NCBI GenBank assembly: GCA_029936395.1
Contig: JAPYSW010000005.1
Span: forward strand, 8,944 to 45,249
Length of the DNA stretch: 36,306 nucleotides
DNA from: Candidatus Poseidoniia archaeon
GTDB lineage: Archaea > Thermoplasmatota > Poseidoniia > MGIII > CG-Epi1
Direction: 5' to 3'
Shown here: positions 1,064-33,334 of the stretch, piece by piece
Layout: each line of letters starts with the position of its first letter
Numbering within the stretch: the stretch's first letter is position 1
Notes under the pieces: model-generated
Told to the model about the DNA's origin: nothing
Database searches by the model: none
Seen by the model: the letters and a program-made list of their open reading frames with translations, nothing else
Position numbers and translations under genes: made by a program

Positions 1064-1861
1064 GTGAGAATATTAATTATTCTATTGGCAATGATGCTTT
1101 TCACGCCTACAGCTAAGGCTGAAGCAAGCCCAATGGAAGAATCATTCGTTGGAAATCCAATCGTAGTTATCAATTTGACATACGAGGCTGGAACCGGAGG
1201 AGGAAATGACTTTCAAGGAGAAATTGTATTAGAATTATTTTTGAATTGGGCTCCAATTACTGTAGAAAATTTTGTGAGCCTTTCTGAACAAGGTTTCTAT
1301 GATGGCATTTTCTTTCATAGAATTATTAATGATTTTGTAATACAAAGTGGCGACCCCACATGTACTGAAATCATAGCTTATCCTGGAACTAATCCTACAT
1401 GTGGAGACGGAGGCTCTGATAATACAATTCCATTAGAGATAAATGAGAATTTAACTCATATTAATGGGGCGATTGGAATGGCCAGAGGAACTGATCCAGA
1501 TTCCGCATCAAGCCAATTTTATATCTGTGATACCCCACAACATGGATTAGATAATGGAAATAGAACATTGGATGGAGATCCTGGTTATGCTGTATTTGGA
1601 GTGGTTAGAGAAGGTTTAGAATTAGTACAAGCTGCAGCAGGAGTTCCTACAACAAATGATGTAGACGGTGATGGTAGTATGCCAAGAGCTCAGGGAGGGC
1701 CTGATCGACCATTATATGAAGTTCACATAAATTCAATCACGCTAAGAGAATATCTAATATCTCCAGTGACAGAAATACAAGATAAAAAAGTACCTGGCTT
1801 CAACTTTAGCTTTGCTATTTTATCACTAGTTATAATGACTATTTGGCATCGTAAAAAATAA
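1064..1861 (+). CDS. Secreted, surface-anchored cyclophilin-type peptidyl-prolyl isomerase
   Basis: Peptidyl-prolyl cis-trans isomerase acting outside the membrane. Residues 1-20 form a signal peptide (hydrophobic MRILIILLAMMLF, then AKA/EA). The cyclophilin core spans about residues 30-225 with family landmarks GEIVLELF, APITVENFV, FFHRI (catalytic Arg), FVIQSGDP, GAIGMARG, SASSQFYI and YAVFGVV. The C-terminus carries a VPGF motif, a hydrophobic helix and a final HRKK: the layout of a PGF-CTERM sorting signal recognised by archaeosortase A. An archaeosortase fusion is encoded at 15562-17223. The GTG start sits behind a TATA box. A membrane protein follows after two bases. The isomerase call is firm; processing by the archaeosortase is inferred. 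Confidence 0.9.
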   Translation: MRILIILLAMMLFTPTAKAEASPMEESFVGNPIVVINLTYEAGTGGGNDFQGEIVLELFLNWAPITVENFVSLSEQGFYDGIFFHRIINDFVIQSGDPTCTEIIAYPGTNPTCGDGGSDNTIPLEINENLTHINGAIGMARGTDPDSASSQFYICDTPQHGLDNGNRTLDGDPGYAVFGVVREGLELVQAAAGVPTTNDVDGDGSMPRAQGGPDRPLYEVHINSITLREYLISPVTEIQDKKVPGFNFSFAILSLVIMTIWHRKK

Positions 1862-8126: not shown

Positions 8127-8155
8127 CGGTAAGGTTGACCGTATTAGGAACGACC

Positions 8156-11100
8156 ATGACGAGAAAACTAACTGCTTTTCTGTTAGCCATATTAATGTTA
8201 CCTTTTTCAGCAATGAATACGTTGGCTGATGAAGGAGACCCTGATTTATCGATAAACGAAATAACATTTAGCGACGATTCACCAACTGGTGGAGACACAA
8301 TAATTATTACTGCCGAAATTGCAAACGATGGAGGATCCAGTGGATTGGTTAGTGTAACAACTAACGCTAGTTTTTACTGGGATGGAAACTATATTGGAAA
8401 AGATAGTATAACGGTCCCAGGTAGTAATACTGCAGATGCTGAAATAGAATGGAGAGCTGTTGGAGGTCTACACACAATTACAGTAATTGTTGATGAAGAA
8501 GAACAAATAAGAGAATCAAATGAAGATAACAATGAAGACACTCAAGACATATCGGTAGAATACCCTCTAATTCTCTTTCTGGATGATGATAATAGTAGTA
8601 ATAATGGAGGAACAAGAACTGAAACGGATGGATATTATTCTGCAGCTCTAGACAATATGTCTACAGGAATAGGATATGACATTATCCGAGTAGATAGTGG
8701 ACAAAATGCCCCTGATTATGATACATTAAGTCAATATAGCTTAATTATTTGGGCTTGTGGAGCTGATTATCAAAGCGGTGATACTGATGTTACTTTTACT
8801 AATGAAGATAAGACAAATGTAGCTAACTTCTTAGAAGATGGAGGTGCATTATGGGCTATTGGCCATGATATTCTTTATGACTTTGATTCAGCAGATGGTG
8901 AAAGAGGCGAAGGTGATTTCGAATATGATTATCTTGGTGTTGCATATGCAGATCACGATAGAACTACGCCTGCTATTCTATATGGTGTAGATGATGACCC
9001 AGTCTCTGATGGAGTTGAATACAATGCTGATGCGATATCTAGTGATTTCGGTGATGATATAAATCCACGAGATGGTTTTGAAAAAGTACTTAGTTCTGGA
9101 GCTGCAGATGATTACAATATTTCAACCATAAGAACGGAAGAAGATTTCAAACTAATTTTTATGGCTGTCGATTTTAGTTCAATTACTGAAAGTTCAGATA
9201 GAGATGAATTAATGGAGAATATAGTAGAATATCTCGTGGAGCAATTGGAAAATGATGTTGCCTTAGGTAGATTCAATACGCCTCTAGACGGGCATACTAT
9301 TGAACCAGATGTAACTAATCTAATCAATGTAACTGTAAGAAATAGAGGAACTGAAGACCAAAGCAATATTGAAGTAGATCTTGAAATTAGATGTTTGAAT
9401 AGCACCTACCGATTTACAGATACTGATACTATTTCTCTTAATGCTGGAGAAAGTGCATTCGTTGAATTTGAATGGGATACTCCTGATGATGAAGATTATG
9501 AATATGAAATAAAAACAACAGCAACAATAGCTAATGATGAAAAAGAAGATAATAATGATAAACAAATTGCAGTTAATACATATGTAAACTATGATGTCGA
9601 ACTATCAGAAGGTCATGTTAATCCTATGATTGCTGAAAAGGATACTGAAAGAAATATGAGTGTTCTTGTAACAAATATTGGTGATGTCACGATGAATTCA
9701 GATGTTATTGGTAAAGTATACGATGGCGCTGGAGGAGTTGTATACAATGGTGGTTCTCAAAATACTGATGATTTAAGCCCTGGGGAATCAATAACTCTAG
9801 ATTGGCAATGGGAAACTGACGAGTATGGAACATTCTGGTTTGAAGCCGAATTAGATGATGATAGTGATGAAATTCCAGAAAATAACCTTGTTTCTGTATT
9901 GATGAGAAGTGTAGACATAGAATTCTCAGATGACATGGAAGATGGTACCAATGGATGGACTAATTACAAATCTTTGAGCAATCCATGGCATATTATTGAT
10001 ACTGATGAAGATGAAAACCGTGAAGCTTCAAGCCCAACCCACGCAATGTGGGTTGGAGATGAATCTAAAGGAGACGGTGAATATGATAATAATTGGGATT
10101 TTGCGCTATATACTGCTAATGAACACACACTAGGTACAAATCCAACTTTGGTAGTAGATATTTGGTATAATACTGAATTTAGCTGGGATGGTGGAAATGT
10201 ACAAATCTCTACAGATAATGGAGAAAATTGGGAAGTAATTACGCCAGATAGTGGATACCCTGATGATGCTGTTGTTGGTTTAGATAATGAACCTGGTTAC
10301 ACCGGAAATTCAGGAGATGGTGAAACTAGTAGTTGGGAAACTGCAAATTTTAATCTAGGTGATTATTCTGGTGAAGATGTTAAATTCAAATTCCGTTTTG
10401 GAACGGACTCCTCAGTTAATACATATGAAGGATGGTACATTGATAATTTTCAAATTAAAGAAGGTATAACTACTGATTATGAAGACGATTTTGAAGATGG
10501 TGATGGAGACTGGGGATCTGATGTCGTCGAAAGTGAATGGAATTATTATAATATTGAAGAAGAACATGGAAATACCTATTCTGGAGATTATTCATGGTAT
10601 TTAGGAAATCCAGATACGGGAACCTATAGTCCTTCTTTGAATGACTCACTTGAAACCCCGATGATTGATTTGGGAGATGGATCTGAGAAATATGTTTCTG
10701 CAATGGTTTGGTTTGGAATAGCAGGCCCTGCTGATTCTGCGATACTTGAAATTAATATATCTGGTGAATGGGAAACATTTGGCTCATTCCCTGGAGATAA
10801 TGGAGAGTATTCAGAAGAATATGAAGATGCTGATGATAACGGATGGTTATACATAGAATTCGATGTTAGTGAATATGAAGGAGATGCGTCCTTTAGAGTC
10901 CGCTTTGTATCAGACACATATACTCAATATGATGGTTTATATGTTGATGATTTTACTTTGTATAGTTTACCACCAATTCCTAATGATGTCGGAACAAAGG
11001 ATTTGGATGCACCAGATACTGCTAAACCGGGAAGAGCTGTAGCATTCAGTTCTAATATCTATAACTTTGGAACTGAGGACCAAAATTCTTTTGATGTAAG

Positions 11101-14100
11101 AGGAACGGTAACAAAAGATGATGGAACTGAAGTTTATAATCAAACCCAGACTATTGGTGAACTTGAATCTAAAGATAATATTACACTTGATTGGGTTTGG
11201 GAAGGCGGTACAAATGGAACTTATACAATAAGAGTTGAAACTTTACTAGATGGTGATGAACGTGTAGGAAATAATCCTAAAGAATCAGATATAGATATTG
11301 CTGAAAGTGGATATAATATTGCATTAACTGTCGAAGAACAAGCCAAAGATGTATTATCTGGCGAATCAGTTATTTTTAATTTTACTGCAACAAATACTGG
11401 AGAAAATAGTGGATATTATGATATAACTGTTGACTATATTAGTGAGCCTGATGAATGGAAAATAATTTCGCATACTACTACAATTTATCTTTCATCGGGT
11501 TCAAGCTATAATTTTACTGTAGCTGTTATTTCACCAACTCTTGCATCTACTGGAGATGAACATCAATTTTCTGTTACTATAACAAGTCGTGATGATCCTG
11601 AAACTGAAGATAGTCAAGATATCTCTGTAACTCCATTCTATTATGATCAAGCTGGAGGTGACAAAGTTCTACTAATTGATGCTAACTTTGGTAAAAATAA
11701 CGGATATAATAATTACTATGATATTGATAAAATTGATACGCGAATGAAGTTAGCTCTTCAACAATATTTCAATAATGGAGAAAGTAGAGGTTATGATGTT
11801 TACACTATTCCATATGATATTGAAGCTGGTTCATATGGTGAATTACATCCTTATCCTACAAATGAATTGATGTCTAATTATGACGTCGTTGTCTGGGTTC
11901 AAGGGGACTACCGTCAACTAAACTTAACCAACTGGAAAGCCTGCATTGGTGATTATCTGGATGGTGGAGGAAGCATGTGGATAATGGGACAACAATTTAT
12001 GACTGCCCTGAATAGTTCTACAGGTTCAAGAGAAGAAGGAAGTTTTGAATATGATTATCTCAAAGTCCGATATGTTAGTGATGGTTCTGGAGTGCCAAAT
12101 CCATTAATTGGAGTTAATGATGATGAAATTTTTGGTGAAGCTGAATATGATATGAATGATCGCAGTATAATTGGATATGACTATACAGACTGGATTAGAC
12201 CAACTGATGATGCTGTCGGTGCTTTCTATACTGGTAATAGCAATTGGTGGCATATTGTAGACACCGAACAAGATTCTAACAGGAAAGCATACAGTCCAAC
12301 ACATTCTATGTGGATTGGGGACGAAAGTAAAAATAATGGTGAATATGAAAGTGGTTGGGATTATTCAATATATACTTCATCCGAATATGAACTAAGTACT
12401 GGCGGGCAATTGAAATTCCAGCACTATTATAGTACTGAAAGTTCAACCTATCCTTATGATGGAGGAAACGTTCAAATCACAACTAATGATGGTGAAGATT
12501 GGGAAGTAATTTATCCAAGTGGTGGATATCCTGGAGATTCGGTTTCTGGATTAGATGGGGAATCTGGATATTACGGCGATTCCGGAGGTTGGGTTGAAGC
12601 TTCTTTTGACTTAACCAATTTTTCTGGTGAAGATGTAAGATTTAGGTTTAGATTTGGTTCTGACAGTGTAACTGACAATTATGAAGGATGGTATTTTGAT
12701 AATGTAGAGTTAACTGATTCGATACATGGAACTCTATTATCTGATGATTTTGAAAATGGAAATACAAATTGGGATGATGCACCACAAGTATTCAATGTAT
12801 CACTCCACTATCAAGGTGATTACAGAGTAATTGTTTCTCCGTTTACATTTGCTTTTGTAAATAATAGTGAAGATAGAGAGGACATGGTAGGCCGTGCTCT
12901 TGATTGGTTAAGGGCTGCAGCTGCTGCAGATGATGTCGGTGTTGATTCATTGGACATTGAAACACCAACTAATGAAAATTCAACTATTGCTTTCTCAAGC
13001 GTTATCAAAAATTATGGTTCTGAAGATCAGACTGCATTCGAAGTTGAAGCTCGAGTTGAGGATGCTGAAGGAAATGAACTATGGTCTCAAACAAAAATAG
13101 TTACAAATCTTGAATCTGGTGAAGAAGAAACTTTAGACTGGGAATGGGAAAGTGAAAATCCTAGAGAAGTTACTTTTGTTGTTGAAACCCTCAAAGACGA
13201 TGAGAGTCATCGAAATAATCTAATGAAAGAAGATATTGAAATTGCAATGATATGTATTCCTGAAATAACTACATTCAATGACCACAAAGAAGGCGAACCT
13301 AGTGATGACATTATGTTTGATTTGATAATTAGTAATCGGGCAAGTGGTGACGATATTTTCGATATCGAGATGACTGGAAGTGCTGCTAGTTGGGGACAAA
13401 TTGCAAATCAATTAGAACTTCATAGTAACGAAAGCCGAGATCTTGAATTAGCACTAAAGATAGATGAAGACACTGAATTGGGTGATTATGATTTGATTAT
13501 TGTTATAGTTGCAAGTGATGGAACAACTGAAGAACTTGAATTACTAATAACCGTGACTGATAATCCCGTTAATTATGAAGTAGAAATCACACTAGACCCT
13601 ACAAATATAGAAACGATTGCAGGAAGAGATGTGGAAGTTGAGATAACTATCTATAATCATGGAGATGAACAAGATACTTTTGATCTCGAATCAAGAGGTG
13701 AAGAAGCTTCATGGGTTGCCTTTGAAGAAAATGGGATACTTATTGGAGCTGGAGGTGAAGATACTGTAACTGCAGTGATTAGTGTACCTGCTGATGCAGA
13801 TGAGGGGAATGCTTATGTTGAAATTTGGGCGACATCAAGAAATGACCAAAGTGCAGAAGATGATAAAACAGTTAAAGTAATTGTAGAAGAATTAACCATT
13901 GGTGCAACTCTTATACGAGATAGTAGCGGTCTAATGAATATTGCACCTGGAACTTCAGGAGACTTTGAATTTACCATATTAAGCGATAGTAATGGTGCGC
14001 AATTGCTAACGATTTTAACAGAAGGAAATGCTGGAGAATGGGCCACATTGGCAATAACCGAAATTGATTTAGAAGCTGAGGGGGCAACTAGTTTTACAGT

Positions 14101-14764
14101 AACTGTAACAGTGCCTCAAGAAACTGCAGAAGCCACATACCGACTAGAAGTCATACTTATGTTTGGTGATGATGAATTGGCTAAATCAGTTTCAAATATT
14201 GTTGTTCAGGCTCCATTTAAAGAACAGAAAGAAATTGAACTATGTTTAACATCAACTAATACCTGCTTTATTTCAAGTAATGGAAGGTCTACATTTGATA
14301 TAACTCTTGATATGGATTCTGATTCAATAACTAGTGAACAATTTGACTTTACAATCGAAAATTTAGGCAATGTTGATATGATAATCGGATTTGAACTAAA
14401 TGGTCCGAATGACATGACTACAAGCAGTATGCTAACTTATACTGACGGTGACGGAAAAACTCTTTGGATGGTGTCAATTATGCCTGAGGATGTTTTAAAC
14501 ATTCAAGAGGAAAACATGGAATTCGGAACCTTATCTATTCTTGCTAATAAACCAGAGCCTGGTGCATACACTTTCACCTTAGTTTGGATGGAAGTCACAG
14601 AAACGGATAGCAATGAGATGGGAGAAATTTCTGTAAATGTGAACATAGAAGGTGATGTTACTCCAGAAAGCACTACCGAAGAAGATGACTCCCTACTTCC
14701 GGGACCCTCTTTCATCTCTATTATTGCAATGTTAGCAATAATGGTGTATCGAAGAAAAAAATAA
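8156..14764 (+). CDS. Giant secreted multidomain surface protein with C-terminal sorting tail
   Basis: 2202 aa. Signal peptide at residues 1-24. In order: CARDB-like adhesion domain (28-135); glutamine-amidotransferase-like Rossmann domain (136-365); two CARDB-like domains (366-587); two MAM/jelly-roll domains (588-772, 773-938), each with a DDxEDG opening; CARDB (941-1048); a NEW3-like beta domain (1052-1162); a second amidotransferase-like domain (1162-1588) split by an inserted jelly roll (1362-1541); CARDB (1592-1695); then four further beta domains. The amidotransferase-like domains lack an obvious catalytic Cys and may be structural. The end is LLPGPSF, a hydrophobic helix and YRRKK, a variant PGF-CTERM-like signal. 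It is very acidic with many Asn-X-Ser/Thr sites. It abuts the operon encoding the fused archaeosortase, tail to tail. Likely a cell-surface or adhesive protein; the partner is unknown. Confidence 0.88.
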   Translation: MTRKLTAFLLAILMLPFSAMNTLADEGDPDLSINEITFSDDSPTGGDTIIITAEIANDGGSSGLVSVTTNASFYWDGNYIGKDSITVPGSNTADAEIEWRAVGGLHTITVIVDEEEQIRESNEDNNEDTQDISVEYPLILFLDDDNSSNNGGTRTETDGYYSAALDNMSTGIGYDIIRVDSGQNAPDYDTLSQYSLIIWACGADYQSGDTDVTFTNEDKTNVANFLEDGGALWAIGHDILYDFDSADGERGEGDFEYDYLGVAYADHDRTTPAILYGVDDDPVSDGVEYNADAISSDFGDDINPRDGFEKVLSSGAADDYNISTIRTEEDFKLIFMAVDFSSITESSDRDELMENIVEYLVEQLENDVALGRFNTPLDGHTIEPDVTNLINVTVRNRGTEDQSNIEVDLEIRCLNSTYRFTDTDTISLNAGESAFVEFEWDTPDDEDYEYEIKTTATIANDEKEDNNDKQIAVNTYVNYDVELSEGHVNPMIAEKDTERNMSVLVTNIGDVTMNSDVIGKVYDGAGGVVYNGGSQNTDDLSPGESITLDWQWETDEYGTFWFEAELDDDSDEIPENNLVSVLMRSVDIEFSDDMEDGTNGWTNYKSLSNPWHIIDTDEDENREASSPTHAMWVGDESKGDGEYDNNWDFALYTANEHTLGTNPTLVVDIWYNTEFSWDGGNVQISTDNGENWEVITPDSGYPDDAVVGLDNEPGYTGNSGDGETSSWETANFNLGDYSGEDVKFKFRFGTDSSVNTYEGWYIDNFQIKEGITTDYEDDFEDGDGDWGSDVVESEWNYYNIEEEHGNTYSGDYSWYLGNPDTGTYSPSLNDSLETPMIDLGDGSEKYVSAMVWFGIAGPADSAILEINISGEWETFGSFPGDNGEYSEEYEDADDNGWLYIEFDVSEYEGDASFRVRFVSDTYTQYDGLYVDDFTLYSLPPIPNDVGTKDLDAPDTAKPGRAVAFSSNIYNFGTEDQNSFDVRGTVTKDDGTEVYNQTQTIGELESKDNITLDWVWEGGTNGTYTIRVETLLDGDERVGNNPKESDIDIAESGYNIALTVEEQAKDVLSGESVIFNFTATNTGENSGYYDITVDYISEPDEWKIISHTTTIYLSSGSSYNFTVAVISPTLASTGDEHQFSVTITSRDDPETEDSQDISVTPFYYDQAGGDKVLLIDANFGKNNGYNNYYDIDKIDTRMKLALQQYFNNGESRGYDVYTIPYDIEAGSYGELHPYPTNELMSNYDVVVWVQGDYRQLNLTNWKACIGDYLDGGGSMWIMGQQFMTALNSSTGSREEGSFEYDYLKVRYVSDGSGVPNPLIGVNDDEIFGEAEYDMNDRSIIGYDYTDWIRPTDDAVGAFYTGNSNWWHIVDTEQDSNRKAYSPTHSMWIGDESKNNGEYESGWDYSIYTSSEYELSTGGQLKFQHYYSTESSTYPYDGGNVQITTNDGEDWEVIYPSGGYPGDSVSGLDGESGYYGDSGGWVEASFDLTNFSGEDVRFRFRFGSDSVTDNYEGWYFDNVELTDSIHGTLLSDDFENGNTNWDDAPQVFNVSLHYQGDYRVIVSPFTFAFVNNSEDREDMVGRALDWLRAAAAADDVGVDSLDIETPTNENSTIAFSSVIKNYGSEDQTAFEVEARVEDAEGNELWSQTKIVTNLESGEEETLDWEWESENPREVTFVVETLKDDESHRNNLMKEDIEIAMICIPEITTFNDHKEGEPSDDIMFDLIISNRASGDDIFDIEMTGSAASWGQIANQLELHSNESRDLELALKIDEDTELGDYDLIIVIVASDGTTEELELLITVTDNPVNYEVEITLDPTNIETIAGRDVEVEITIYNHGDEQDTFDLESRGEEASWVAFEENGILIGAGGEDTVTAVISVPADADEGNAYVEIWATSRNDQSAEDDKTVKVIVEELTIGATLIRDSSGLMNIAPGTSGDFEFTILSDSNGAQLLTILTEGNAGEWATLAITEIDLEAEGATSFTVTVTVPQETAEATYRLEVILMFGDDELAKSVSNIVVQAPFKEQKEIELCLTSTNTCFISSNGRSTFDITLDMDSDSITSEQFDFTIENLGNVDMIIGFELNGPNDMTTSSMLTYTDGDGKTLWMVSIMPEDVLNIQEENMEFGTLSILANKPEPGAYTFTLVWMEVTETDSNEMGEISVNVNIEGDVTPESTTEEDDSLLPGPSFISIIAMLAIMVYRRKK
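9916..12780 (+). repeat. Jelly-roll (MAM-like) repeats inside the giant protein, three copies
   Basis: Three copies of a roughly 170-180 residue beta domain, at about 9916-10470, 10473-10970 and 12240-12780. The first and third are closest: WHIIDTDEDENRE against WHIVDTEQDSNRK, SPTHAMWVGDESK against SPTHSMWIGDESK, GGNVQISTDNGENWEVI against GGNVQITTNDGEDWEVI, and YEGWYIDNFQIK against YEGWYFDNVELT. The second copy is more diverged. The pattern is protein-level duplication, with no near-identical DNA repeat visible. Confidence 0.75.
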
Positions 14765-15559
14765 TTATTCGTCGAAGGTCCCTTTGGCAATTAAAGCAGG
14801 CATTAGTGCAAAGTAGGACATGTAAAGTGCAAAAGCTAGATACCATATGGATTCCCATAAATCATTCTCAAAAAAACGAAATACTATAGTAATTATTAAA
14901 ATTATAATGCCAAATAATATTGGATTTCTAAAGCCAGCTCTAGCTTTGGCATAAGGAATGGTAGTTACAGTTAACAATGAAACTAACCCTATCGATATTG
15001 GAACTAAAATATTATTAAAATCATTAATTAAAGAATATTTAATTGAAATTACTACTATAAACATAGACAAACCAGGAGAAGGTAAGCCATGGAAATATTT
15101 GTTATCGCTCTGATTCCCTTGTGTAAATCTTGCCAATCTAAAAATGCTAAGTAAGAGAACCATTAATGAAGCTGAAATAGCAACTATATTTTCTAGATTA
15201 TATCTAAAATTAAAATTAAGATCATCATCTATTATGTCTATAGCTGGCCCTCGGCCTATATCATAATATAATGAATAAATCAAAATAGATGGAGCTAAAC
15301 CAAAACAAATCGAATCAGATATTGAATCTAAATATTTACCATAATCATGCTTTGTTCCAAATTTGCGTGCTAAAGCCCCATCCATTCCATCAATTATAGC
15401 TGAAATTGGAAGTAGCATCAAGGCTACAATATAACTCGAAACAGTACCATCAATTATGTACATAATTGCTAGAAAACCTAAAGCAGCGCTTGTGAAAGTA
15501 GCTATATCTGCATAAGAAATTAAGGTAACTGGCTTGAAAATTTGTTTCAATGTGGTCAC
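14765..15559 (-). CDS. pssA: CDP-alcohol phosphatidyltransferase, PssA type (archaetidylserine synthase)
   Basis: Membrane enzyme that would transfer a CDP-activated archaeal lipid to serine, giving archaetidylserine. The family motif is complete: Asp57-x2-Asp60-Gly61-x2-Ala64-Arg65 followed by Gly74-x3-Asp78-x3-Asp82 (DGMDGALARKFG, GKYLDSISD). Several hydrophobic helices follow to residue 255; 264 aa is a normal length. The PssA rather than glycerol- or inositol-phosphate assignment rests on KYLDSISDSICFG and on context: the gene begins two bases after the archaeosortase-PssD fusion, whose decarboxylase half would use the product. GTG start. The stop abuts the convergent giant-protein gene with no gap. 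Family firm; serine specificity probable. Confidence 0.85.
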   Translation of the reverse strand: MTTLKQIFKPVTLISYADIATFTSAALGFLAIMYIIDGTVSSYIVALMLLPISAIIDGMDGALARKFGTKHDYGKYLDSISDSICFGLAPSILIYSLYYDIGRGPAIDIIDDDLNFNFRYNLENIVAISASLMVLLLSIFRLARFTQGNQSDNKYFHGLPSPGLSMFIVVISIKYSLINDFNNILVPISIGLVSLLTVTTIPYAKARAGFRNPILFGIIILIITIVFRFFENDLWESIWYLAFALYMSYFALMPALIAKGTFDE

Positions 15560-15561: not shown

Positions 15562-17223
15562 CTAATCACCCTTATCTATTGCGGAGGCTTGAATTTTTGA
15601 AAGCAACCTTTTAGGACCTTCCATTAATTTTTCAGCAACTGAAAGAGATGACATGGGAGTGAATTCAGCTATTGTTTGTCCTGCTAAGATACGATCACCC
15701 TCTTTAATTTTTATTCTAATTCCTGAGGATTCAAAGTCTAAATCTACCCGTGAACCAAAATGAATTAGTCCGATACGCCCCCCTTTTTTGATGAACTCAT
15801 TCGGTTCGATGTAACTAACAATACGCCTAACTAAGAAACCGGCAATTTGTGTAATTTTGAAAATTCCAAGGTCGGTATCTAATTTAGTAATTAATCTCTC
15901 ATTCCTGTTTGAATCTTTAGAAAATGCAGGTAAATTCCCACCAGGTTTATGCCTTTGTGAAATTATTTTACCATCAATAGGTGAACGATTAACGTGTACA
16001 TTTTGAAGACCCATGAAGACTGAAATATGAACCATCCCTCGTTTAGTCTCTACCTTCTGGACTAATCCATCTGCAGAACTAACGATGCCCTCTTGAATTT
16101 CTCGATAAGGATCCCTATAGAAGCAAAGAAGAAATATAGATAAAATAATCAAAACTAAAGAGATTGCATACATCTCTTCAAGAGGCCAGTCAACTACAAT
16201 CCCTTGTTCACTAATAGAATTTGAAGAAACTCCAAATGGGAATAAAATTAAACCAGACACTATTACATAAATTACCATATTTGGCATATCTTTTGCAAAT
16301 GGGATTTTGGGAGCTCCTTCGGGCATTTCACGTAAAGGAAGATCTATAACACCTAATATTGAATCCTGCATTTCAGGTAGAAAATGAAAAACAGCTATAG
16401 CTAGAACTACAAGAGCAAGCAAACTACCAATTTTTGCATAAACGGCATGAGCCCAGAAGAATGTATCAACTCCCCACACATGCTCATATGTTAACCAAAT
16501 AACTACAGCATTACGGACTAAATTCAAAATATAAATTGGAGGTACTGTTACCAAAAATGCATTAAAACGGCGATTAAGAGGTGCCTTTGTACAAATGACA
16601 CCGCCAACAAAGATTATCATACTTTGAAGTGCTGTACAAGCAAGAACTATGTTTACAGAAGGTGCAAGTGGATTTTTCCAACTACCACCTTCAATAGAGA
16701 CTCGAACTTCTTCATGTTCTGAACCTGAACGATAAATCTTAGATCCTTCGCCATAATCTATCAAACCAAGTGTATTATCAACACCGAAAATATCAAGAAT
16801 CCATATTGACTGTTCTGCTACTAAATGTATTAACCAACCTGCGAGTAAAGGCACTCTTTCTACAAAGAAATAGATACCACCTGCTACAACAGTCATAGCT
16901 GCTAACCATCGCAAAGGTTCGTAGGCTGATTTCCAGATAATACTCAAATATTCATGGTAAGCTAAATATCCGAAAAAAGGAACTGCAGCTGCACAAATTA
17001 AAGCATTAACTGGATCTTTTATGAGTATGTAATATTCTACTTGAATCCACCAAAAAAAACCTAAGGATAACCACCCTAAAATACTAAATTGATTTCCTAT
17101 TTTTGTAGGAAACCGTTTTCCAAAGAATATATGATCTCTTTCTGAAAGATAATAACCTATAGCCAATAAAAATAATGAACTAATGACAAAAACTTCTCCA
17201 AGTAATGAAAAATCGGTTGCCAT
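15562..17223 (-). CDS. Archaeosortase A-phosphatidylserine decarboxylase fusion (ArtA-PssD)
   Basis: 553-aa membrane protein with two enzymes in one chain. Residues 1-290 are an archaeosortase/exosortase domain of about eight helices with the transpeptidase triad Cys196 (ACTALQSM), Arg237 (NLVRNAV) and His259 (WAHAVYAKIGS). Two linker helices (about 312-335, 352-368) lead to a phosphatidylserine decarboxylase domain, 368-545: FYRDPYRE, SSADGLV, HISVFMGLQNVHVNRSP, and FGSR, where Ser491 would become the pyruvoyl group by self-cleavage. Known for haloarchaea: ArtA cleaves PGF-CTERM proteins and joins them to lipid, and PssA and PssD are needed. Inference: this fusion makes an ethanolamine-type archaeal lipid next to the transpeptidase. 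pssA follows after two bases. A possible own TATA box is at 17245-17253. Confidence 0.9.
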   Translation of the reverse strand: MATDFSLLGEVFVISSLFLLAIGYYLSERDHIFFGKRFPTKIGNQFSILGWLSLGFFWWIQVEYYILIKDPVNALICAAAVPFFGYLAYHEYLSIIWKSAYEPLRWLAAMTVVAGGIYFFVERVPLLAGWLIHLVAEQSIWILDIFGVDNTLGLIDYGEGSKIYRSGSEHEEVRVSIEGGSWKNPLAPSVNIVLACTALQSMIIFVGGVICTKAPLNRRFNAFLVTVPPIYILNLVRNAVVIWLTYEHVWGVDTFFWAHAVYAKIGSLLALVVLAIAVFHFLPEMQDSILGVIDLPLREMPEGAPKIPFAKDMPNMVIYVIVSGLILFPFGVSSNSISEQGIVVDWPLEEMYAISLVLIILSIFLLCFYRDPYREIQEGIVSSADGLVQKVETKRGMVHISVFMGLQNVHVNRSPIDGKIISQRHKPGGNLPAFSKDSNRNERLITKLDTDLGIFKITQIAGFLVRRIVSYIEPNEFIKKGGRIGLIHFGSRVDLDFESSGIRIKIKEGDRILAGQTIAEFTPMSSLSVAEKLMEGPKRLLSKIQASAIDKGD

Positions 17224-17261: not shown

Positions 17262-17990
17262 TTAATTTGAAAGCCACTTTCGTGCAGTGTTATATGATTC
17301 TAAATCCCCAATATCATACCAAACACCTCGAAAAGAAACCGATTTTACATCTGCCTTTTGAATATGCCAAGCTAAAAAATTACCAAGAGCATCTCGATCT
17401 CCCCCAGAATTAATATAATCTAAAAAATTAATAATTCCCTTCTCGGACAATAACCAATAAGCTGTTGCAGCTAAAGTTGACTTCGGTTTACTTGGTTTTT
17501 CATGGAAATCAGTAATACTTTCGCTGTTTGTTTCTGCAATCCCATAAAGCCTCGCCAATTCAAGATCTTCAACATCATATAATCCAATAACGTCTTTCTT
17601 AGTTTCCTGATATCTTCTAACCATTTGATTTAAATCAAAATTAGAAAGATTATCGCCGCCTGCAATGAAAACTGGACCTTTGATTGAATATTCAGAAAAA
17701 AGCAAATTTAAGGCACCGAGGGCACCTAACTTTTCTTCTTCATTATTACTTGATTCCACAAATAATTCAAGATTTAATGGACCCACATAATTCTTTATAT
17801 AATTCTCAAAATTAGTTGCAAAAAAACTATTGACAGATACAATTACTCTTTCAGGATTTATTCTTTCTAAAGATTTGAGAACGTGTGTAAGCATTGGCTT
17901 GCCTGCTACATCTAATAATTGTTTAGGAGTGTTCTTAGTAAGAGGCCACATCCTTTTGGCAAATCCACCTGCCAATACTATTGAATCCAT
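17262..17990 (-). CDS. Sugar-1-phosphate nucleotidyltransferase
   Basis: Joins a sugar-1-phosphate to a nucleoside triphosphate to make an activated sugar for glycan synthesis. The N-terminus has the NTP-transferase signature LAGGFAKRMWPLTKNTPKQLL (residues 6-26), then GKPMLTHVL, a metal-binding Asp in FIAGGDNLSNFD, ITDFHEKP, and a C-terminal GVWYDIGDLESYNTARKW typical of RmlA and mannose-1-phosphate guanylyltransferase relatives. At 242 aa it is a single catalytic domain without the left-handed beta-helix acyltransferase tail. The sugar and nucleotide cannot be read from sequence. It overlaps the upstream coiled-coil gene by one base (TAATG) and precedes the archaeosortase fusion by 38 bases, suggesting a role in surface glycans or glycolipids. 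Confidence 0.88.
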   Translation of the reverse strand: MDSIVLAGGFAKRMWPLTKNTPKQLLDVAGKPMLTHVLKSLERINPERVIVSVNSFFATNFENYIKNYVGPLNLELFVESSNNEEEKLGALGALNLLFSEYSIKGPVFIAGGDNLSNFDLNQMVRRYQETKKDVIGLYDVEDLELARLYGIAETNSESITDFHEKPSKPKSTLAATAYWLLSEKGIINFLDYINSGGDRDALGNFLAWHIQKADVKSVSFRGVWYDIGDLESYNTARKWLSN

Positions 17991-18880
17991 TAAAGTGTGA
18001 TTTTGCCACCAGACAATAATTGTTGAAGTGCATCATCTGCAACATTATCTAATTTCTTTGGATCATATAATTCTTTCTTTATATTTTGACGATGATCCTT
18101 AACAACTTTCCAACGGGCTTGTCGTTCATCACTTTCACTTTTACGATGTGTACGTAATGTTTCAAGCATTTCCATAGCTTTAGCATGTTGATTATCTGCT
18201 TTCTTTCGACAGTCTACAAATTCTTTATGCTTTTTATCAGATTCAGTCGAAAGATGAGAAGCTTCCTTCATTAATACAGTAACTTTCTTATAAATTTTCT
18301 TATTCTGTCTAGCCATGTTTACGACAGACTTGTGCTCTTCATCAGCTCTAGAAAATTCTGAATCTATAGTTGTATCTAGCTCAGATACCTCTGCATTAAT
18401 ATGTTCTTGAGTGGATAATACTACTTCTTGATCACCTAAACTTCTTCTCAAAATAGCTAACTTATCCATTACTTCTCTTTCTTTGGAAATAGGCATCTCC
18501 GTAGTTTCTCTTCGCTTTTCTAAGTTAAGAATTTCAGAATGTAAAGCTTGAACTGTATCTTTTAGTGATTTTCCACCTCTTTTATCTTTCCTTTTTTGTT
18601 GCTTAAGTTCAATTAGTTGCTTAGCCTTTTCTTGAGCACTATTGCGTAAATTCTGATGCTTTACCTTAATAGTAGTATTTGCTTTCATCTCATCACGATG
18701 GGCCATAATTTCTTCCATGACCTTATTACGTTGATCATGCAACGAATTTCTTTCGTCTCTTAATGCTCGAGCTTCTTCATTGAGAGTATTTCGCTTACCT
18801 ACGCAATTTTGGAAACGTTCTTCAGCTAACTTAGTTTCCGATTTTGGCTTTCCCTGAGTTCTAGATTTTTTTTGAGCCAT
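17990..18880 (-). CDS. COG1340-like coiled-coil protein
   Basis: 296 aa, almost entirely charged coiled coil, with no membrane segment or signal peptide. Stretches such as EEARALRDERNSLHDQRNKV and a basic QQKRKDKRGGKSLKD hinge in the middle match the archaeal COG1340 family (MJ1322-like), whose function is unknown. The C-terminus ends in a short globular-looking stretch (DPKKLDNVADDALQQLLSGG). It heads a leftward cluster: its TAA overlaps the ATG of the nucleotidyltransferase by one base, so the two are translationally coupled, with ArtA-PssD and PssA further on. It could be a cytoskeletal or scaffolding component of envelope synthesis, but this rests only on neighbours. Confidence 0.8.
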   Translation of the reverse strand: MAQKKSRTQGKPKSETKLAEERFQNCVGKRNTLNEEARALRDERNSLHDQRNKVMEEIMAHRDEMKANTTIKVKHQNLRNSAQEKAKQLIELKQQKRKDKRGGKSLKDTVQALHSEILNLEKRRETTEMPISKEREVMDKLAILRRSLGDQEVVLSTQEHINAEVSELDTTIDSEFSRADEEHKSVVNMARQNKKIYKKVTVLMKEASHLSTESDKKHKEFVDCRKKADNQHAKAMEMLETLRTHRKSESDERQARWKVVKDHRQNIKKELYDPKKLDNVADDALQQLLSGGKITL

Positions 18881-19982: not shown

Positions 19983-20606
19983 ATGCTTAGTAAAACATTA
20001 AAAAATATTGCCGAACGTCTTTTAAAACCAATAGCAGTAGTTATAGGAAAAATGGGAATTAAACCAAACCATATTACTGTTATGGGACTTCTCCTAACTT
20101 TTTGGGCCTCATGGTTTATTTATAACAAAGATATCTATTTTGCTTTTCTTATTGGACTTCTTGCTTCTCTATTTGATGGAGCTGATGGGTTAGTTGCTAG
20201 AGCTACTGGAACTTCTTCAAAAAAAGGTGGATATCTTGATGCTGTTCTTGACAGATATGCCGATTGCCTCGCTTTTGGGGCACTGATATTAGGTGGATGG
20301 ATGAAACCAATAAATGGAATTGATTTTATCTCAGGTGAAATGTGGGCAATAGCTGCTTTGATTGGAGCTTTTCAAACCTCTTATGCGCGTGCTGCTGCAG
20401 AAAGATTAGGCATTTCACAAGAAGGAATTGGAATTATTGAAAGGCCTGAAAGATTATTTATTTTTGGAATAGGACTTTTAATTGGAGAACTAATGAATGA
20501 CGTCGAAATAATTATTACATTTGTTGTTGCATTCTTAGCCATATTGGGTAATCTAACTGTGATTCAAAGAATGGCACATTTTTGGAGAGAAGCTAAGGAT
20601 GAATAA
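19983..20606 (+). CDS. CDP-alcohol phosphatidyltransferase, probably archaetidylinositol-phosphate synthase
   Basis: 207-aa membrane enzyme that couples a CDP-activated archaeal lipid to a polar alcohol phosphate. The motif is complete: Asp65-x2-Asp68-Gly69-x2-Ala72-Arg73 and Gly82-x3-Asp86-x3-Asp90 (DGADGLVARATG, GGYLDAVLDRYAD). The N-terminus MLSKTLKNIAERLLKPIA and GIKPNHITVMGLLL, plus DAVLDRYADCLAFGALILGGW, resemble archaeal archaetidylinositol-phosphate synthases more than PssA or PgsA. About five or six helices follow. It overlaps the next gene, a PgpA-type phosphatase, by eight bases; a phosphatase is what a lipid-phosphate synthase needs to finish its product. The alcohol (inositol phosphate or glycerol phosphate) is inferred. 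Confidence 0.82.
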   Translation: MLSKTLKNIAERLLKPIAVVIGKMGIKPNHITVMGLLLTFWASWFIYNKDIYFAFLIGLLASLFDGADGLVARATGTSSKKGGYLDAVLDRYADCLAFGALILGGWMKPINGIDFISGEMWAIAALIGAFQTSYARAAAERLGISQEGIGIIERPERLFIFGIGLLIGELMNDVEIIITFVVAFLAILGNLTVIQRMAHFWREAKDE

Positions 20607-21087
20607 ATCGAAAGATTGGATCAATGAAAGTATTGTTTCATTCTTCTTTTTAGGAAGATCGCCAGTTGCTCCTGGGACTTTTGGAACTTTGGGATCGCTC
20701 ACATTAGCATATTTAATTGTTCAAAATATAGAACATTACGTAGGGCTGCTCTTAATTTGTATGAGTTTAATTATGTATTATGTTGGATTACAAGTTGCTC
20801 CATGGTGTGAAGAAAAATATGGAAAAGATCCGGGTATTTATGTACTTGATGAAGTTATTGGTTATTTAATTCCAATAAGCTTTCTAATAATTCTCAATAA
20901 TGAAATTACACAACAAATCTGGATTTTATCATTCATTGCCTTTAGAGTATTTGATGTTTTGAAAATATGGCCTGCAAAAGATTTAGAAAAAATTGAAGGC
21001 GGCCATGGGATTCTGCTAGATGACGTCGCCGCTGGATTTCAAACTTTAATTATAATTTTACTATGTTTGCAATTCAATTTCATTTAA
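20599..21087 (+). CDS. pgpA: PgpA-type lipid phosphatase
   Basis: 162-aa membrane protein of the phosphatidylglycerophosphatase A family. Signatures are FFLGRSPVAPGTFGTLGSL near residue 18, YVLDEVIGYLIP and FRVFDVLKIWPAKDLEKIEGGHGILLDDVAAG, which hold the acidic metal-binding residues. Four hydrophobic helices are visible. It would remove the phosphate from archaetidylglycerol phosphate or archaetidylinositol phosphate, the likely product of the gene it overlaps by eight bases. The family is firm; the natural substrate is inferred from the neighbour. Confidence 0.9.
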   Translation: MNKSKDWINESIVSFFFLGRSPVAPGTFGTLGSLTLAYLIVQNIEHYVGLLLICMSLIMYYVGLQVAPWCEEKYGKDPGIYVLDEVIGYLIPISFLIILNNEITQQIWILSFIAFRVFDVLKIWPAKDLEKIEGGHGILLDDVAAGFQTLIIILLCLQFNFI

Positions 21088-23711: not shown

Positions 23712-25109
23712 ATGTCCATTGAAGCAATACTAATTCTGCTAATTTTCATAATTGCCTTTGCCTTAATTTTAGGAGAAATTGTTGACAGAGTTTTAGCAGC
23801 ATGGGGAGGTGCAGTAGGCATGCTTCTAGTTGGAACCTATTACCAGGCTCTTACTTGGTGTACCGGAGGAGGACACGGTGACGGTTGTGAAAACAACCTT
23901 TTCGAAGCAATTGATTTCAATGTAATTGGCCTATTATTAGGGATGATGATTTTTGCCGGAATGCTAGAAATTAGTGGATTTTTTGAATTTATAGCAATCA
24001 AAGCTACAAAATTATCTAAAGGAGATCCATGGCTTTTAGTTGTTTATCTAGGTACATTTACTACAATTATTTCAGTTTTTATTGATAATGTAACTGCATT
24101 AATTCTAATTGCTCCAGTTACTTTGAAAATATGCTCGAAAATAGAGATTAGTCCAATACCACCTCTAATTGCTCTCGCTATATTCTCTAATACTGGAGGT
24201 GTTGCCACTTTAGTTGGAGATCCTCCTAATGTTCTAATTGCATCTTACACTAGTGAACGAGGTTTAGGATTTAGTTTTATTAGTTTTATCGAACATCTTA
24301 CTCCTTTAGCAATTATTGCATGGGGTGCAACTCTAGGATACATGAGATACCACTATACTGAGTGGAGAGAAAAAACACCAAAAAATGTAGAAGAAATAAT
24401 GGCAGAAGATGAGTGGGCTGCTGTAAGTAATGATATTTTAATGTATAGAACCTTAGGCGCCTTGGCTGTAACTGTTATCATGTTTGCTGCAGTTGAAATT
24501 ATACACTTAAATTTAGAAATTTCAGCAGTATCTTTGGGTGGCGCTGGTATTGCAATGTCCATCAGTATGATTGGCGTTACTGAAGATAAACGTCTTGATA
24601 TTCATGAAGTAATACATAAAGTCGAATGGGCTGCGCTCCTATTCTTTGCCGGACTCTTTGTTATGGTAGGAGGTCTAGAAGCAATGGGCCATCTAGAATC
24701 AGTGGCTAACTGGATTTTCAATAATTTTGGCCCTGGAGGAAGTATATCACAAGATGAAGTTGTATTGGTAATTGTTCTTATCTGGGTTTCGGCTATTTCA
24801 TCTGCTATTGTGGACAATATACCATTTTGCGCAGCTATGCTACCAGTAATCAATCAATTGGGAGAACTTAGTGAAGAAGTTAATGTCATTCCTCTCTATT
24901 GGGCTTTAGCTATTGGTTGTGGATTTGGTGGAAATGCAACACCAATCGGCTCCAGTGCTAATGTCATGACAATTTCGATTAGCGAAAGAGGCGGACATAA
25001 GATTTCAACTAAAGAATGGTTGAGTGTAGGAGTTCCAGTAATGCTCATCACGTGTACTATTGCATCAATCATAGTGGCTATATTCTACGGACATTTTGAA
25101 ACTGCTTAG
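23712..25109 (+). CDS. ArsB/NhaD-family ion transporter
   Basis: 465-aa integral membrane protein with about eleven helices, of the ion-transporter superfamily that includes ArsB, NhaD and the eukaryotic P protein. Two inverted halves carry equivalent motifs: SVFIDNVTALILIAPVTLK with NTGGVATLVGDPPNVLIASY in the first, and SAIVDNIPFCAAMLPVI with GNATPIGSSANVMTI in the second. A non-conserved cytoplasmic loop lies near residues 215-240. It probably exchanges Na+ for H+ or exports an anion; marine life would suit a sodium antiporter, but specificity cannot be read here. Its own TATA box precedes the ATG. The 3' end overlaps the convergent rhomboid gene by four bases. Confidence 0.88.
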   Translation: MSIEAILILLIFIIAFALILGEIVDRVLAAWGGAVGMLLVGTYYQALTWCTGGGHGDGCENNLFEAIDFNVIGLLLGMMIFAGMLEISGFFEFIAIKATKLSKGDPWLLVVYLGTFTTIISVFIDNVTALILIAPVTLKICSKIEISPIPPLIALAIFSNTGGVATLVGDPPNVLIASYTSERGLGFSFISFIEHLTPLAIIAWGATLGYMRYHYTEWREKTPKNVEEIMAEDEWAAVSNDILMYRTLGALAVTVIMFAAVEIIHLNLEISAVSLGGAGIAMSISMIGVTEDKRLDIHEVIHKVEWAALLFFAGLFVMVGGLEAMGHLESVANWIFNNFGPGGSISQDEVVLVIVLIWVSAISSAIVDNIPFCAAMLPVINQLGELSEEVNVIPLYWALAIGCGFGGNATPIGSSANVMTISISERGGHKISTKEWLSVGVPVMLITCTIASIIVAIFYGHFETA

Positions 25110-26023
25110 TTCAAATAATTAGTACCACATTCCGAACATACACCCTTTGGAGTAATTGGTGTTTTACAATCTGGACACACTTGCGCTTCCCAAAATGTTT
25201 CGATCCAAGCATCTAATAACTCAGGCTCATCGGCAGTTTGCATCATCTCTAATTCATAATATCCTTTTTTTGTGATACTTGAAACTTTACGGAATTTATC
25301 AATATCTAAATTTAACTTAATTTCAACCGAAGTATCTTTAGATGAATAATACGGAGCTACAAAGACCCCGATAACAAATGAAGCCATGTGTGTCGTATGT
25401 CCAATGCCATCTTCAGTTCCCATTCCAACATAAAAAGTTTCCATGGCCACAAAAACTAATGTTGCAAGAAATACTGGCACTCTATGCATAAAAATAGGAC
25501 CTAGAAGCATCGGAATCTCATCTCTAGGGTAGAGTAAGGCAAAACCACCCATGATGCCGAAAACAGCCCCTGAGGCACCTATATTGATGGTTTCCAAGCC
25601 ACTTTGATTCAAAACTGAAATCCAACCAGTAATTAATGAACCAAGAATGCCACTTACTACATATATTCTTAAAAAAGAACGTGAACCGATACGATCTTCG
25701 AAAGGAACTCCCAATAAAATCAGGATAAGCATATTCAATAGCAAATGCATTGGACCTGCATGCATAAACATTGCACTCACTAATGTAAGTAATTCTATGC
25801 TCGGTGATTCTAAGTAAGCAGACTTGAACCCTAAACTAACAAAAGCATCTACAGCTATACTTGGTTTTAATAACAAAAGAATCCACCATGTGGCAAAAAT
25901 ACCAAAGTTGATGAAGACTAATGATTGTGAAACCATGAACTGATTGCGTTTGCAATAGTAGGACACTCCAATCCCGACTAAGACTAGAATCAGAATCCCC
26001 CAATAAGAAATTGGTTCTGACAT
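25106..26023 (-). CDS. Rhomboid intramembrane protease with C-terminal zinc ribbon
   Basis: 305-aa membrane protein. The rhomboid core spans roughly residues 70-230: HAGPMHLLLNMLIL (His88, His93 and Asn97 of the HxxxxHxxxN pattern), catalytic Ser151 in GASGAVFG, and catalytic His212 in HTTHMASFVIG. It cleaves transmembrane segments of substrate proteins. One or two extra helices lie before the core. The last 23 residues form a CPDC...CSEC zinc ribbon (Cys283, 286, 296, 299), which would sit on the cytosolic side and could bind a partner or regulate substrate entry. It overlaps the convergent transporter gene by four bases. Confidence 0.9.
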   Translation of the reverse strand: MSEPISYWGILILVLVGIGVSYYCKRNQFMVSQSLVFINFGIFATWWILLLLKPSIAVDAFVSLGFKSAYLESPSIELLTLVSAMFMHAGPMHLLLNMLILILLGVPFEDRIGSRSFLRIYVVSGILGSLITGWISVLNQSGLETINIGASGAVFGIMGGFALLYPRDEIPMLLGPIFMHRVPVFLATLVFVAMETFYVGMGTEDGIGHTTHMASFVIGVFVAPYYSSKDTSVEIKLNLDIDKFRKVSSITKKGYYELEMMQTADEPELLDAWIETFWEAQVCPDCKTPITPKGVCSECGTNYLN

Positions 26024-26128: not shown

Positions 26129-29100
26129 CTATTCTTCTTCTCTACGTAGAGATGCACCGATTGCTGCAACCATTGCTGCTACAGCCAAACCAATGATTCC
26201 TACTGCGAAAGATGGAGTAGATGCCTTGTTCTTGACGACGTTAATTTGACCAACTGCATCATTATCATCTTTTTGGTTAAGGTACTCGTCTTGAGCCTTA
26301 ATTCCGGCAAGCGTGTCTTCTTCTTCCGCTAGAGGATTGATTTCTGCATACATTTCAACTGTATCATAGTCTGAAACTGTTGTTCCTGGGATGAATACAT
26401 CGTCCCAAGTTGCTGTTGCAAATTCCCAAGTCTTATAGACGCCATCAGCTTCCAATACTGGCTTAGGAGCCATTACATCGATAGTTGTTGAAGCTACACG
26501 AGTCATACGATGAGTTCCTGTTGGAGTAGAGTATGCATCACCTGTAGGATCCATTACATAGAAGACAACCAATACATCAGATGCGTAGTTACCTTCATTC
26601 CATGCTTTGACTGTGATTTCTAAGGACTGCCCTTCGATTACACTTGCGCGGTCAAAGGTCATTTCACCAAGCACAAACTGTGAAGGTTTAATGAATAATG
26701 TTGCAGCTATAGGTTCTCTTAGAGATTCATCACCATACTGTCCATTGATTACAACATCGAACTTGCGGTTACCTGCTGGTTCACCAGATTCAGAATTATA
26801 ATCTGGAGCTACGAAACGGACTGTGACCATTGCTTCATCATCGGGATCCATTTCAAATTCATGAGTCCAAGTTCCATCTTCATTTTGTGATTTAGTAATA
26901 ACATCAAATGCTACACCATTCATCATAATATTGATGTCTATCTCGAAAGCTGGACCATCATATGCTTTACCTTGAGCATTCAAATCTGGAGTCATACTGA
27001 ATGAATTCGATACGGTTCCTATGTTCTTAACAAAGTAATCTATCTCAACTGCCAAACTTGGGAATATGTCATAAGTTAACGGCCAATCAGTATCCTTTGT
27101 CAAAAAGAATCCAGTATCAAGTGTTCGAATCACTTGAACTCCACCAATGTCTGCTGTACCTTCAACTCCGCGAGCACGGAAAACGAAAGAATATGCATTA
27201 TCATCGGATGGGTCATACGCAAGACTATTGTATCCTAGTTTCTTTGAATCTAAGGATATGTAGTATGGGTTCCAACCATTGGATGAATAAGCTAATGAAT
27301 CACCAACATCGCTGTGGTCAGTTCCATCAATTATTTTGAATCCGTTAGCAGACCATAGACCTAATGAATCTGAATCATCTAACGAGGATCCCTTCTTTTG
27401 TGCATATACGCTAATTGAACTGTCGTCTGACATATCAAAATTAGCCCAGAACACTAAGAATGATTCTTTAGACCATACTTCTACATAGTTTGTTCTAACC
27501 ATTTCATCTGCATCTTGACTGGAAACTACAGTAATTGAACCTTTCATCATTGGATGAAATTTACAATAATAACTGAAAGCACCAACTTCATTGAAAGTCA
27601 TTTCAAAACTTTCACCTGCAGCAATATCGAAAGAATCGAATTGTGAGTTCTCGTCAGTTACAGTATGAGTTACATCATCAGAATTAGTCCACTTGACTGT
27701 GGTTCCAAGCTGAACTGTTGGATCAGATGGAGTATATCCTACACCTGCTCCATCAATGCTTATATCCAAAGTATCAGTTGCAATACCTGTTTGATCCCAT
27801 GAAACGCTCATTGCGCCATCTCCGACATCGGAAGGTTCACTAACAGTAGCTGCCCAGTTTTCACCACCGGTTAGAACTGGATCGCCCATTGCTGCGCTCT
27901 TTCCTACTATCAACATGTGGCTTGCAACATTATTTGCCGCAAATAAATCAGCTAAATCAATTCCGTCTGAATCTGTTACTTTAACACCTGCGGTGTAAAC
28001 ACCTGCTGTGTCCATACCAGGATAAGTAAAGGTCATTACTGGAGAAGCTTCTCCGCCGTGTGTTATACTGCCTTCATAGTAAGCCATAGCCAAAGTACCT
28101 AGTGTCTGTTGTGAAGACCAAACTTCATTTCCTTCAATGTCATCAACAAATGCATATGCGTAAGCTGAAGATACTACTCCTGAAGGTCCTAAATCCCCTG
28201 CACCTTGATTCTTGAAGGAGGTTGTGAATGTTGATTCTTCACCTACTTCTAAAGTATAAGGACTTGAGTCAGAAGTCATAGCAAGGTCGAAACCAAGGCC
28301 ATAAATTCCTACATCATCTATTTCCCAAGATGAACCCCAGTTAGGGAATGCACTCCCTAATCGGAATCGGATTTGAATATTATCGAATCCATCTCCGGTG
28401 TATGCATCTAATCTACACTCAGTTGTTACAAAGGCACCACCTGAATCCATTGTAAAACCATCCAAACCACTTAGAGGATTTCCATAATATGCGTAGTTGT
28501 AAATAGTTCCGCGATACAATTCACCACCAGTTGGATTTAATCCAGACCAAGATTCTCCGGCATCTGTACTAATCTCAACTCTTGCACCATCATAGTAATA
28601 GTTACCATATGGATACTCGAAACCATAAAATGAATACTTATGACTGAATACTAATTTAGCTGAAGTAGCTTTGGAAAGATCGAAGACTGGTGAAATTAAA
28701 CTTGAGTCATCACCCGCATAAGGAACTCCATATGAATCCGTTCCAGCATCCCAAGTTGGTGATGTACTAGCTCCAGTTGTTGCTGAAGGCCTAAACAAGA
28801 AACTATCATCAGGTCCGCCATCTCTCTGAGCACTCCAACCAGATGAATACATCACTTTACTCTCATCATCAGGTTTCTTCTGAGTTGTTGTCTCATCTGC
28901 AGTAGTTCCTGCAACTAAAAACATAGTCTCTCTAGCTAACCCTAATGAATTATCACCTTCAAACTCATCGATACCAGATCCATGGTCTCCAATCCAGGTC
29001 TCAAAGATAATTTTGTATTGTCCTGGAACTTGGAAGTAATAATCAAGACCTACAGTTTGTGAAGCTCCGCTCATGAATTCACCAAGTGTTCCATCACCTG

Positions 29101-33283: not shown

Positions 33284-33290
33284 ATGTACA

Positions 33291-33297
33291 CACCTTG
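33291..33297 (-). promoter_or_regulatory. Shine-Dalgarno site for the 2384-aa protein
   Basis: CAAGGTG on the minus strand lies seven bases before the ATG at 33283 and contains AGGTG, complementary to the anti-SD end of archaeal 16S rRNA. It is one of few such sites in a window of mostly leaderless genes, and it decides for the downstream start. Confidence 0.55.
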
Positions 33298-33311
33298 GTT
33301 GAGTCCTTGTA

Positions 33312-33334
33312 TCAGTGGGCTTGCACCCATCTGA
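33312..33334 (-). promoter_or_regulatory. Hairpin in the 5' leader of the 2384-aa protein gene
   Basis: The minus strand reads TCAG-A-TGGG, loop TGCAAG, CCCA-C-TGA-type partner: TCAG pairs with CTGA and TGGG with CCCA, with one bulged A. The stem lies between the TATA box and the Shine-Dalgarno site. It may stabilise the message or control ribosome access. Confidence 0.4.

Follow-up and report, generated by a model that had tools for sequence, protein, structure and literature searches.

The closest described system is that of Haloferax volcanii, in which the archaeosortase ArtA, PssA, and PssD provide three activities and act on proteins carrying a PGF-type signal. Deletion genetics revealed that ArtA does not cleave its substrate unless both HvPssA and HvPssD are present, in agreement with the link to ArtA-dependent anchoring drawn in the first-pass annotation of the DNA analyzed here, and all three proteins are located at midcell (PMC7157517). 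Archaetidylethanolamine has been put forward in that study as the resolving amine for the ArtA thioester, as a model only (PMC7157517), and the identity of the archaeosortase acceptor lipid is still a model based on deletion phenotypes in one haloarchaeon. In Methanosarcina, artA, pssA, and pssD lie together as three separate genes (PMC7157517, Fig. 1). The bacterial rhombosortase/GlyGly-CTERM system likewise removes a C-terminal signal, with the involvement of a glycerophosphoethanolamine-containing group (PMC7157517; PMC6219818). Here we describe a locus in a 36,306-nucleotide stretch of DNA (the window) from an archaeon of Marine Group III, a marine lineage without cultured members, in which an archaeosortase A and a decarboxylase of the phosphatidylserine decarboxylase (PSD) family form a single polypeptide, with pssA as the next gene.

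Results

Archaeosortase A and a decarboxylase share one reading frame

The fused gene runs uninterrupted from its ATG to its stop codon on the minus strand of the window and has the following features:

15562 to 17223, minus strand: fused gene, archaeosortase A - archaetidylserine (phosphatidylserine) decarboxylase, 553 aa
16342 to 17097, minus strand: archaeosortase A domain, residues 43-294 (TIGR04125, 148.6 bits)
16636 to 16638, 16513 to 16515, and 16447 to 16449, minus strand: archaeosortase A codons for Cys196, Arg237, and His259, respectively
16117 to 16281, minus strand: junction with its membrane hairpin of two helices, residues 315-369 (from hydropathy; model helices 315-339 and 348-368)
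15664 to 16173, minus strand: decarboxylase domain, residues 351-520, with D385 and H410 (PF02666, 117.7 bits)
15751 to 15756 (GGT TCA), minus strand: predicted self-cleavage site between Gly490 and Ser491
15568 to 15645, minus strand: amphipathic helix at the C-terminal end of the alpha chain, residues 527-552 (model helix 529-552)

Profile searches bear out the first-pass reading of a single protein with both domains. The TIGR04125 score lies above the curated cut-off of 75, which makes the N-terminal half a member of the archaeosortase A family, and the same residues match TIGR04178 with 60.2 bits (cut-off 23). The C-terminal half belongs to PF02666, the phosphatidylserine decarboxylase family, for which the gathering cut-off is 22. 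Several PSD equivalog models also match residues 351-520, each with a score under its own cut-off, including TIGR00164 (archaetidylserine decarboxylase; 138.4 bits, curated cut-off 230) and NF038088 ("protein sorting system archaetidylserine decarboxylase"; 156.7 bits, curated cut-off 240). With a score below the cut-off, the fused Psd is not assigned to NF038088, but it may still work in a similar manner.

The archaeosortase triad of Cys196, Arg237, and His259 and the FGS site with Ser491 are found where they had first been placed. Together with Asp385 and His410, the triad and Gly490-Ser491 are invariant in an alignment of 13 fusions that includes those of the more distant genus g2. The fusion is the one PF02666 protein in the window's genome. 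Its profile matched none of the sequences of solved structures, and a Foldseek search with the decarboxylase half returned Escherichia coli PSD (7cnx and 7cnz) as the best matches, with a probability of 1.00. In the AlphaFold model, confidence is limited to the Psd half, with pLDDT values below 50 at residues 99-314, so that no contact between the domains can be read from it.

The fusion is genuine and under purifying selection

Most of the genomes involved are metagenome-assembled, which is the sole point in favor of an assembly join or a frameshift having brought two genes together. Against this, the frame is unbroken in all 16 genomes of the family in which the gene is complete and fused, spanning two Marine Group III genera. 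Public relatives bear the name Marine Group III euryarchaeote (CG-Epi1 and others); among them are the isolate records AG-343-N02, AG-343-J07, and AH-321-L02, of which those of the AG series (AG-343-N02 and AG-343-J07) are single-cell genomes. Insertions and deletions at the junction of the 13 aligned fusions comprise whole codons. When the window is compared with its nearest relative, a close species, dN/dS amounts to 0.031 for ArtA, 0.095 for the junction (residues 295-350), 0.089 for Psd, and 0.025 for the C-terminal tail; the junction is thus under purifying selection. The unbroken frames, whole-codon indels, and junction dN/dS exclude the frameshift or join near residue 300 that the first-pass annotation had raised as a possibility; the artifact reading, to which we give a negligible probability, is already refuted for Marine Group III.

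Several apparent departures from this architecture were examined and rejected. Separate ArtA and Psd genes in genome G017 reflect contig ends, and a second Psd copy in G001 is a fragment at a contig end. A separate Psd translated from an internal start is unlikely: the ATG at residue 313 is kept in genus g1 and absent in g2, and it is not preceded by a properly spaced Shine-Dalgarno-like site. A triple ArtA-Psd-PssA fusion, suggested by listed open frames of 817-828 aa from three relatives, is contradicted by the sequence, which has an in-frame TGA between psd and pssA. At loci L009, L010, and L011, artA-psd and pssA are in the same frame with one TGA between them, which is near to a triple fusion, yet not one.

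Fusion has occurred repeatedly in the phylum

To place the fusion in context, both families (ArtA and PF02666) were searched in 390 genomes of the phylum Thermoplasmatota. The usual state is separate genes in the order artA, psd, and often pssA, frequently overlapping; artA and psd are adjacent in 58 of the 66 genomes outside the class that were listed with both genes. Such artA-psd(-pssA) operons are present in families f4, f5, f15, f16, f20, f21, f23, f29, f32, f34, and f36, with no pssA detected beside psd in f5, f29, and f36. These separate operons likely represent the state before fusion.

Among the matches listed, Psd is part of a long fused frame in three groups only: Marine Group III, family f13, and family f19. 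The latter two rest on few metagenome bins, namely one genome for f13 (G069; 429 aa, L097:1553-2839) and two for f19 (G076 and G084; 444-447 aa), all with ArtA followed by Psd. In f20, the sister family of f13 within its order, the genes are separate. On the tree built from the ArtA and Psd sequences of 35 loci, three changes are required to account for the fusions, and the starred branches force at least two. Approximately unbiased (AU) tests reject a single clade of all fusions (p-AU 0.018), as well as groupings of f1 with f13 (0.018) and of f13 with f19 (0.005). The ArtA-Psd fusion therefore arose at least twice, and probably three times, within the phylum.

Predicted topology places the two active sites on opposite sides of the membrane

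The hairpin between the two domains has a counterpart at the N-terminus of unfused Psd proteins and is a membrane anchor contributed by the Psd part. It is retained in the Marine Group III and f19 fusions and missing from the f13 fusion, in which the last ArtA helix runs directly into FFRDPE, where the Psd domain starts. The number of helices between the last ArtA helix and Psd in the three fusions is thus two, two, and zero, an even number each time, which would keep Psd on the cytoplasmic side in every case. The charge distribution points the same way: loops 211-223 and 284-315 are positive, 243-262 contains no Lys or Arg, and 335-350 contains at most one. From this pattern, the ArtA Cys/Arg/His site is predicted to be outside and Psd in the cytoplasm, as for H. 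volcanii ArtA (PMC4343526) and E. coli PSD (PMC7952604), respectively. The first-pass proposal that the lipid nucleophile is produced at its site of use would consequently hold within the plane of the membrane but not across it; with Psd inside and the ArtA site outside, the lipid would still have to cross.

Self-cleavage of the ~62 kDa precursor should leave ArtA joined to the beta chain, as anticipated in the first-pass annotation, in a polypeptide of ~55 kDa, and yield an alpha chain of ~7 kDa (predicted residues 491-553). The release of the alpha chain anticipated alongside it is not expected. Because 29 of the 34 alpha-chain residues in E. coli PSD lie within the alpha-beta interface (PMC7952604), the small chain should stay bound non-covalently. 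The C-terminal helix of the alpha chain is strongly amphipathic (hydrophobic moment 0.59, shuffle p 0.002) and is specific to genus g1, being missing from the g2 fusions in the alignment; a contact with the membrane or with PssA is possible. This helix is also the part of the protein with the lowest dN/dS.

The surrounding genes include pssA and candidate substrates

The following genes of the window flank the fusion or carry putative sorting signals:

14765 to 15559, minus strand: pssA, CDP-alcohol phosphatidyltransferase, archaetidylserine-synthase-like, starting 2 bp past the fusion stop codon
17262 to 17990, minus strand: sugar-nucleotidyltransferase-like gene directly upstream of the fusion (PF00483, 116.8 bits)
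17990 to 18880, minus strand: coiled-coil protein with a weak DUF7121 match
8135 to 14764, plus strand: giant 2209-aa surface protein, encoded convergently to pssA, with the translated tail LLPGPSFISIIAMLAIMVYRRKK
1064 to 1861, plus strand: cyclophilin-type isomerase (PF00160), with a PGF-CTERM-like tail, VPGFNFSFAILSLVIMTIWHRKK, by inspection

The pssA product belongs to PF01066 (CDP-OH_P_transf; 53.5 bits, cut-off 22), and its best NCBIfam model is NF038087, archaetidylserine synthase, with 91.2 bits, under the cut-off of 240. The gene adjoins the fusion wherever the contig extends that far. On contig C11 of genome G003 (L004/L049), pssA is split into two frames by a sequencing error or as a pseudogene, and the upstream fusion is intact. 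On the other side, the sugar-nucleotidyltransferase-like gene adjoins artA in all three genera, and the coiled-coil gene is likewise a conserved neighbor in all three.

The C-terminus of the 2209 aa protein has the motif-helix-basic tail of archaeosortase substrates, and its gene is a conserved neighbor with a similar tail in g1 and g2. From these features, the protein is likely an ArtA substrate. The cyclophilin-type isomerase is a possible second one, judging by its tail, for which no sorting-signal model scored above its cut-off. In the window's genome as a whole, the PGF-CTERM model TIGR04126 has two matches above cut-off, plus weaker ones ending SPGFG...RR, and 11 of the 21 genomes of the window's family encode PGF-CTERM proteins above the curated cut-off.

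A second protein of the exosortase/archaeosortase family, outside all named subfamilies, is encoded on contig C40 of the same genome (L042:1450-2289; TIGR04178, 31.6 bits by hmmscan, cut-off 23), and a nearby open reading frame ends with the PGF-type sequence FLPGFDPIFTIFALGLVATALSRSRRD. Near the sorting locus, at positions 19983-21087 of the window, lies another CDP-alcohol phosphatidyltransferase gene with that of a PgpA-type phosphatase behind it, a pair that probably belongs to another head-group pathway (archaetidylglycerol). Further along are a rhomboid protease with a zinc-ribbon-like C-terminal tail, CPDCKTPITPKGVCSECG (25106-26023), and a giant surface protein of 2428 aa with M36-peptidase-like and cyanin-like matches (26129-33415), whose tail, TPSFAVGIIGLAVAAMVAAIGASLRREEE, resembles a PGF signal but is distinct from it.

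Some lineages retain ArtA without a decarboxylase

In family f3 of the same class, ArtA is nearly universal, and among genomes that are at least 85% complete, PF02666 is present in only 2 of 38, versus 45 of 50 genomes of family f2. Family f3 is likely Marine Group IIb; from class and kinship, we infer f2 to be Marine Group IIa. Family f3 thus keeps ArtA, and 36 of its 38 well-covered genomes lack any PF02666 decarboxylase. A similar arrangement is seen in Marine Group III genus g3, represented by one genome that is 79% complete (G015; L036/L019), where ArtA stands alone at the syntenic locus, which lacks psd, pssA, and the giant surface gene; neither psd nor pssA was found elsewhere in this bin. 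The g3 ArtA, apparently working without any Psd, is sister to the fused ArtAs in the tree (support 92/70).

Archaetidylethanolamine made by Psd cannot, therefore, be the universal ArtA acceptor. Given ArtA without Psd in most f3 genomes and, apparently, in g3, these lineages must have another lipid as the acceptor or a different route to it.

Discussion

We propose, with a probability of roughly 0.6, that the fusion is a bifunctional membrane enzyme, with archaetidylethanolamine produced in the inner leaflet and, once flipped, used for PGF-CTERM anchoring. The neighboring PssA would make archaetidylserine, and the cytoplasmic Psd domain, having cleaved itself at Gly490-Ser491 to form a pyruvoyl group, would convert this lipid to archaetidylethanolamine in the inner leaflet. 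On the outer face, the N-terminal ArtA domain would cleave secreted proteins at their C-terminal PGF-type signal via a thioester at Cys196, which would then be resolved by the amine of archaetidylethanolamine that has flipped to the outer leaflet, leaving the surface protein amide-linked to a membrane lipid. The fusion would fix the stoichiometry of the two enzymes and hold the lipid-making step beside the lipid-using step. We infer both activities, the self-cleavage, the topology, the lipid flipping, and the role of archaetidylethanolamine as acceptor; the sequences themselves show both domains with their conserved catalytic residues, purifying selection, the operon with pssA, the PGF-CTERM proteins, and the repeated fusion. 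The single Psd of the genome, the frequent adjacency of artA and psd outside the class, and the H. volcanii genetics also speak for the proposal. That independent fusions recurred supports the idea that the anchoring and lipid-making steps work together, and the sub-cut-off scores for NF038088 and TIGR00164 count against the proposal, as do the lineages that keep ArtA without Psd. An extended version, in which decarboxylase, hairpin, and archaeosortase form an obligate machine that carries archaetidylethanolamine from its synthesis in the inner leaflet to the active site outside, appears doubtful to us. If it were true, nearly all archaetidylethanolamine would go onto proteins, with little free in the membrane.

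The main rival to the bifunctional enzyme is that the fusion serves co-expression only, adjacent operon genes having merged by loss of a stop codon, with the two enzymes working as if apart and no local hand-over of lipid. Few steps would be needed, given how widespread the ancestral order artA-psd-pssA is in the phylum, often with overlapping genes, and almost no sequence was lost at the junction in g1 and g2; the need for the product to flip regardless also weakens the case for direct channeling. This reading fits less readily with fusions on at least two, probably three, separate occasions, always in the order artA-psd, when the equally adjacent psd-pssA pair has not been seen fused. Nor does it explain why the fusion has been kept over two genera with no reversion to separate genes, or why the f13 fusion deleted the Psd hairpin and left the last ArtA helix as the only anchor. 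On balance, we consider co-expression alone a tenable but distinctly less probable account.

Two further readings assign a function to only one half of the protein. If the Psd half supplied the bulk archaetidylethanolamine of the cell, with ArtA as a passenger or an anchor, this would agree with the fusion being the only PF02666 protein in the genome, from which any bulk archaetidylethanolamine must come. Such a role is improbable given that the ArtA catalytic residues are invariant and that ArtA evolves more slowly than Psd, and given the presence of PGF-CTERM substrates in the genome and of the giant surface gene beside the locus. The PSD scores below the equivalog cut-offs might instead point to one half being a scaffold or a regulator, such as a Psd that no longer cleaves itself and senses lipid for ArtA; with Asp385, His410, Gly490, and Ser491 unchanged in all aligned fusions, even in g2, we see very little room for a dead domain. 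The bifunctional enzyme hence remains our preferred reading. It offers a one-gene system whose two active sites can be inactivated singly, and the independent, repeated fusion constitutes separate evolutionary evidence that the product of the decarboxylase matters for sorting.

Compared with H. volcanii, where the three genes are separate and unlinked, the ArtA and PssD counterparts here form a single polypeptide, followed directly by pssA; the activities of the fusion, by sequence comparison, would be the same three together with PssA, and the PGF-type signal is alike. Methanosarcina has the same three genes together, but not fused in the published description (PMC7157517). The rhombosortase of the GlyGly-CTERM system is a rhomboid serine protease that is not homologous to ArtA and has no decarboxylase fusion. 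E. coli PSD shares the fold of the C-terminal half and a Gly-Ser self-cleavage site, but it is a monotopic protein with amphipathic helices, an LGST site instead of FGS, and no fusion partner (7cnx, 7cnz; PMC7952604). Within Thermoplasmatota, the artA-psd-pssA operons have the gene order and homologous proteins of our locus in separate, often overlapping reading frames, and the f13 and f19 fusions have the same domain order as in Marine Group III but are independent by the tree, with that of f13 lacking the Psd hairpin. In the open-access literature, of which our coverage was partial, we found no published ArtA-PSD fusion; the reports of a fusion with PssD mentioned in the first-pass annotation could not be traced there, and what has been published is the gene adjacency in Methanosarcina. 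We therefore regard the ArtA-Psd fusion as a variant of the known sorting system and not as a separate kind.
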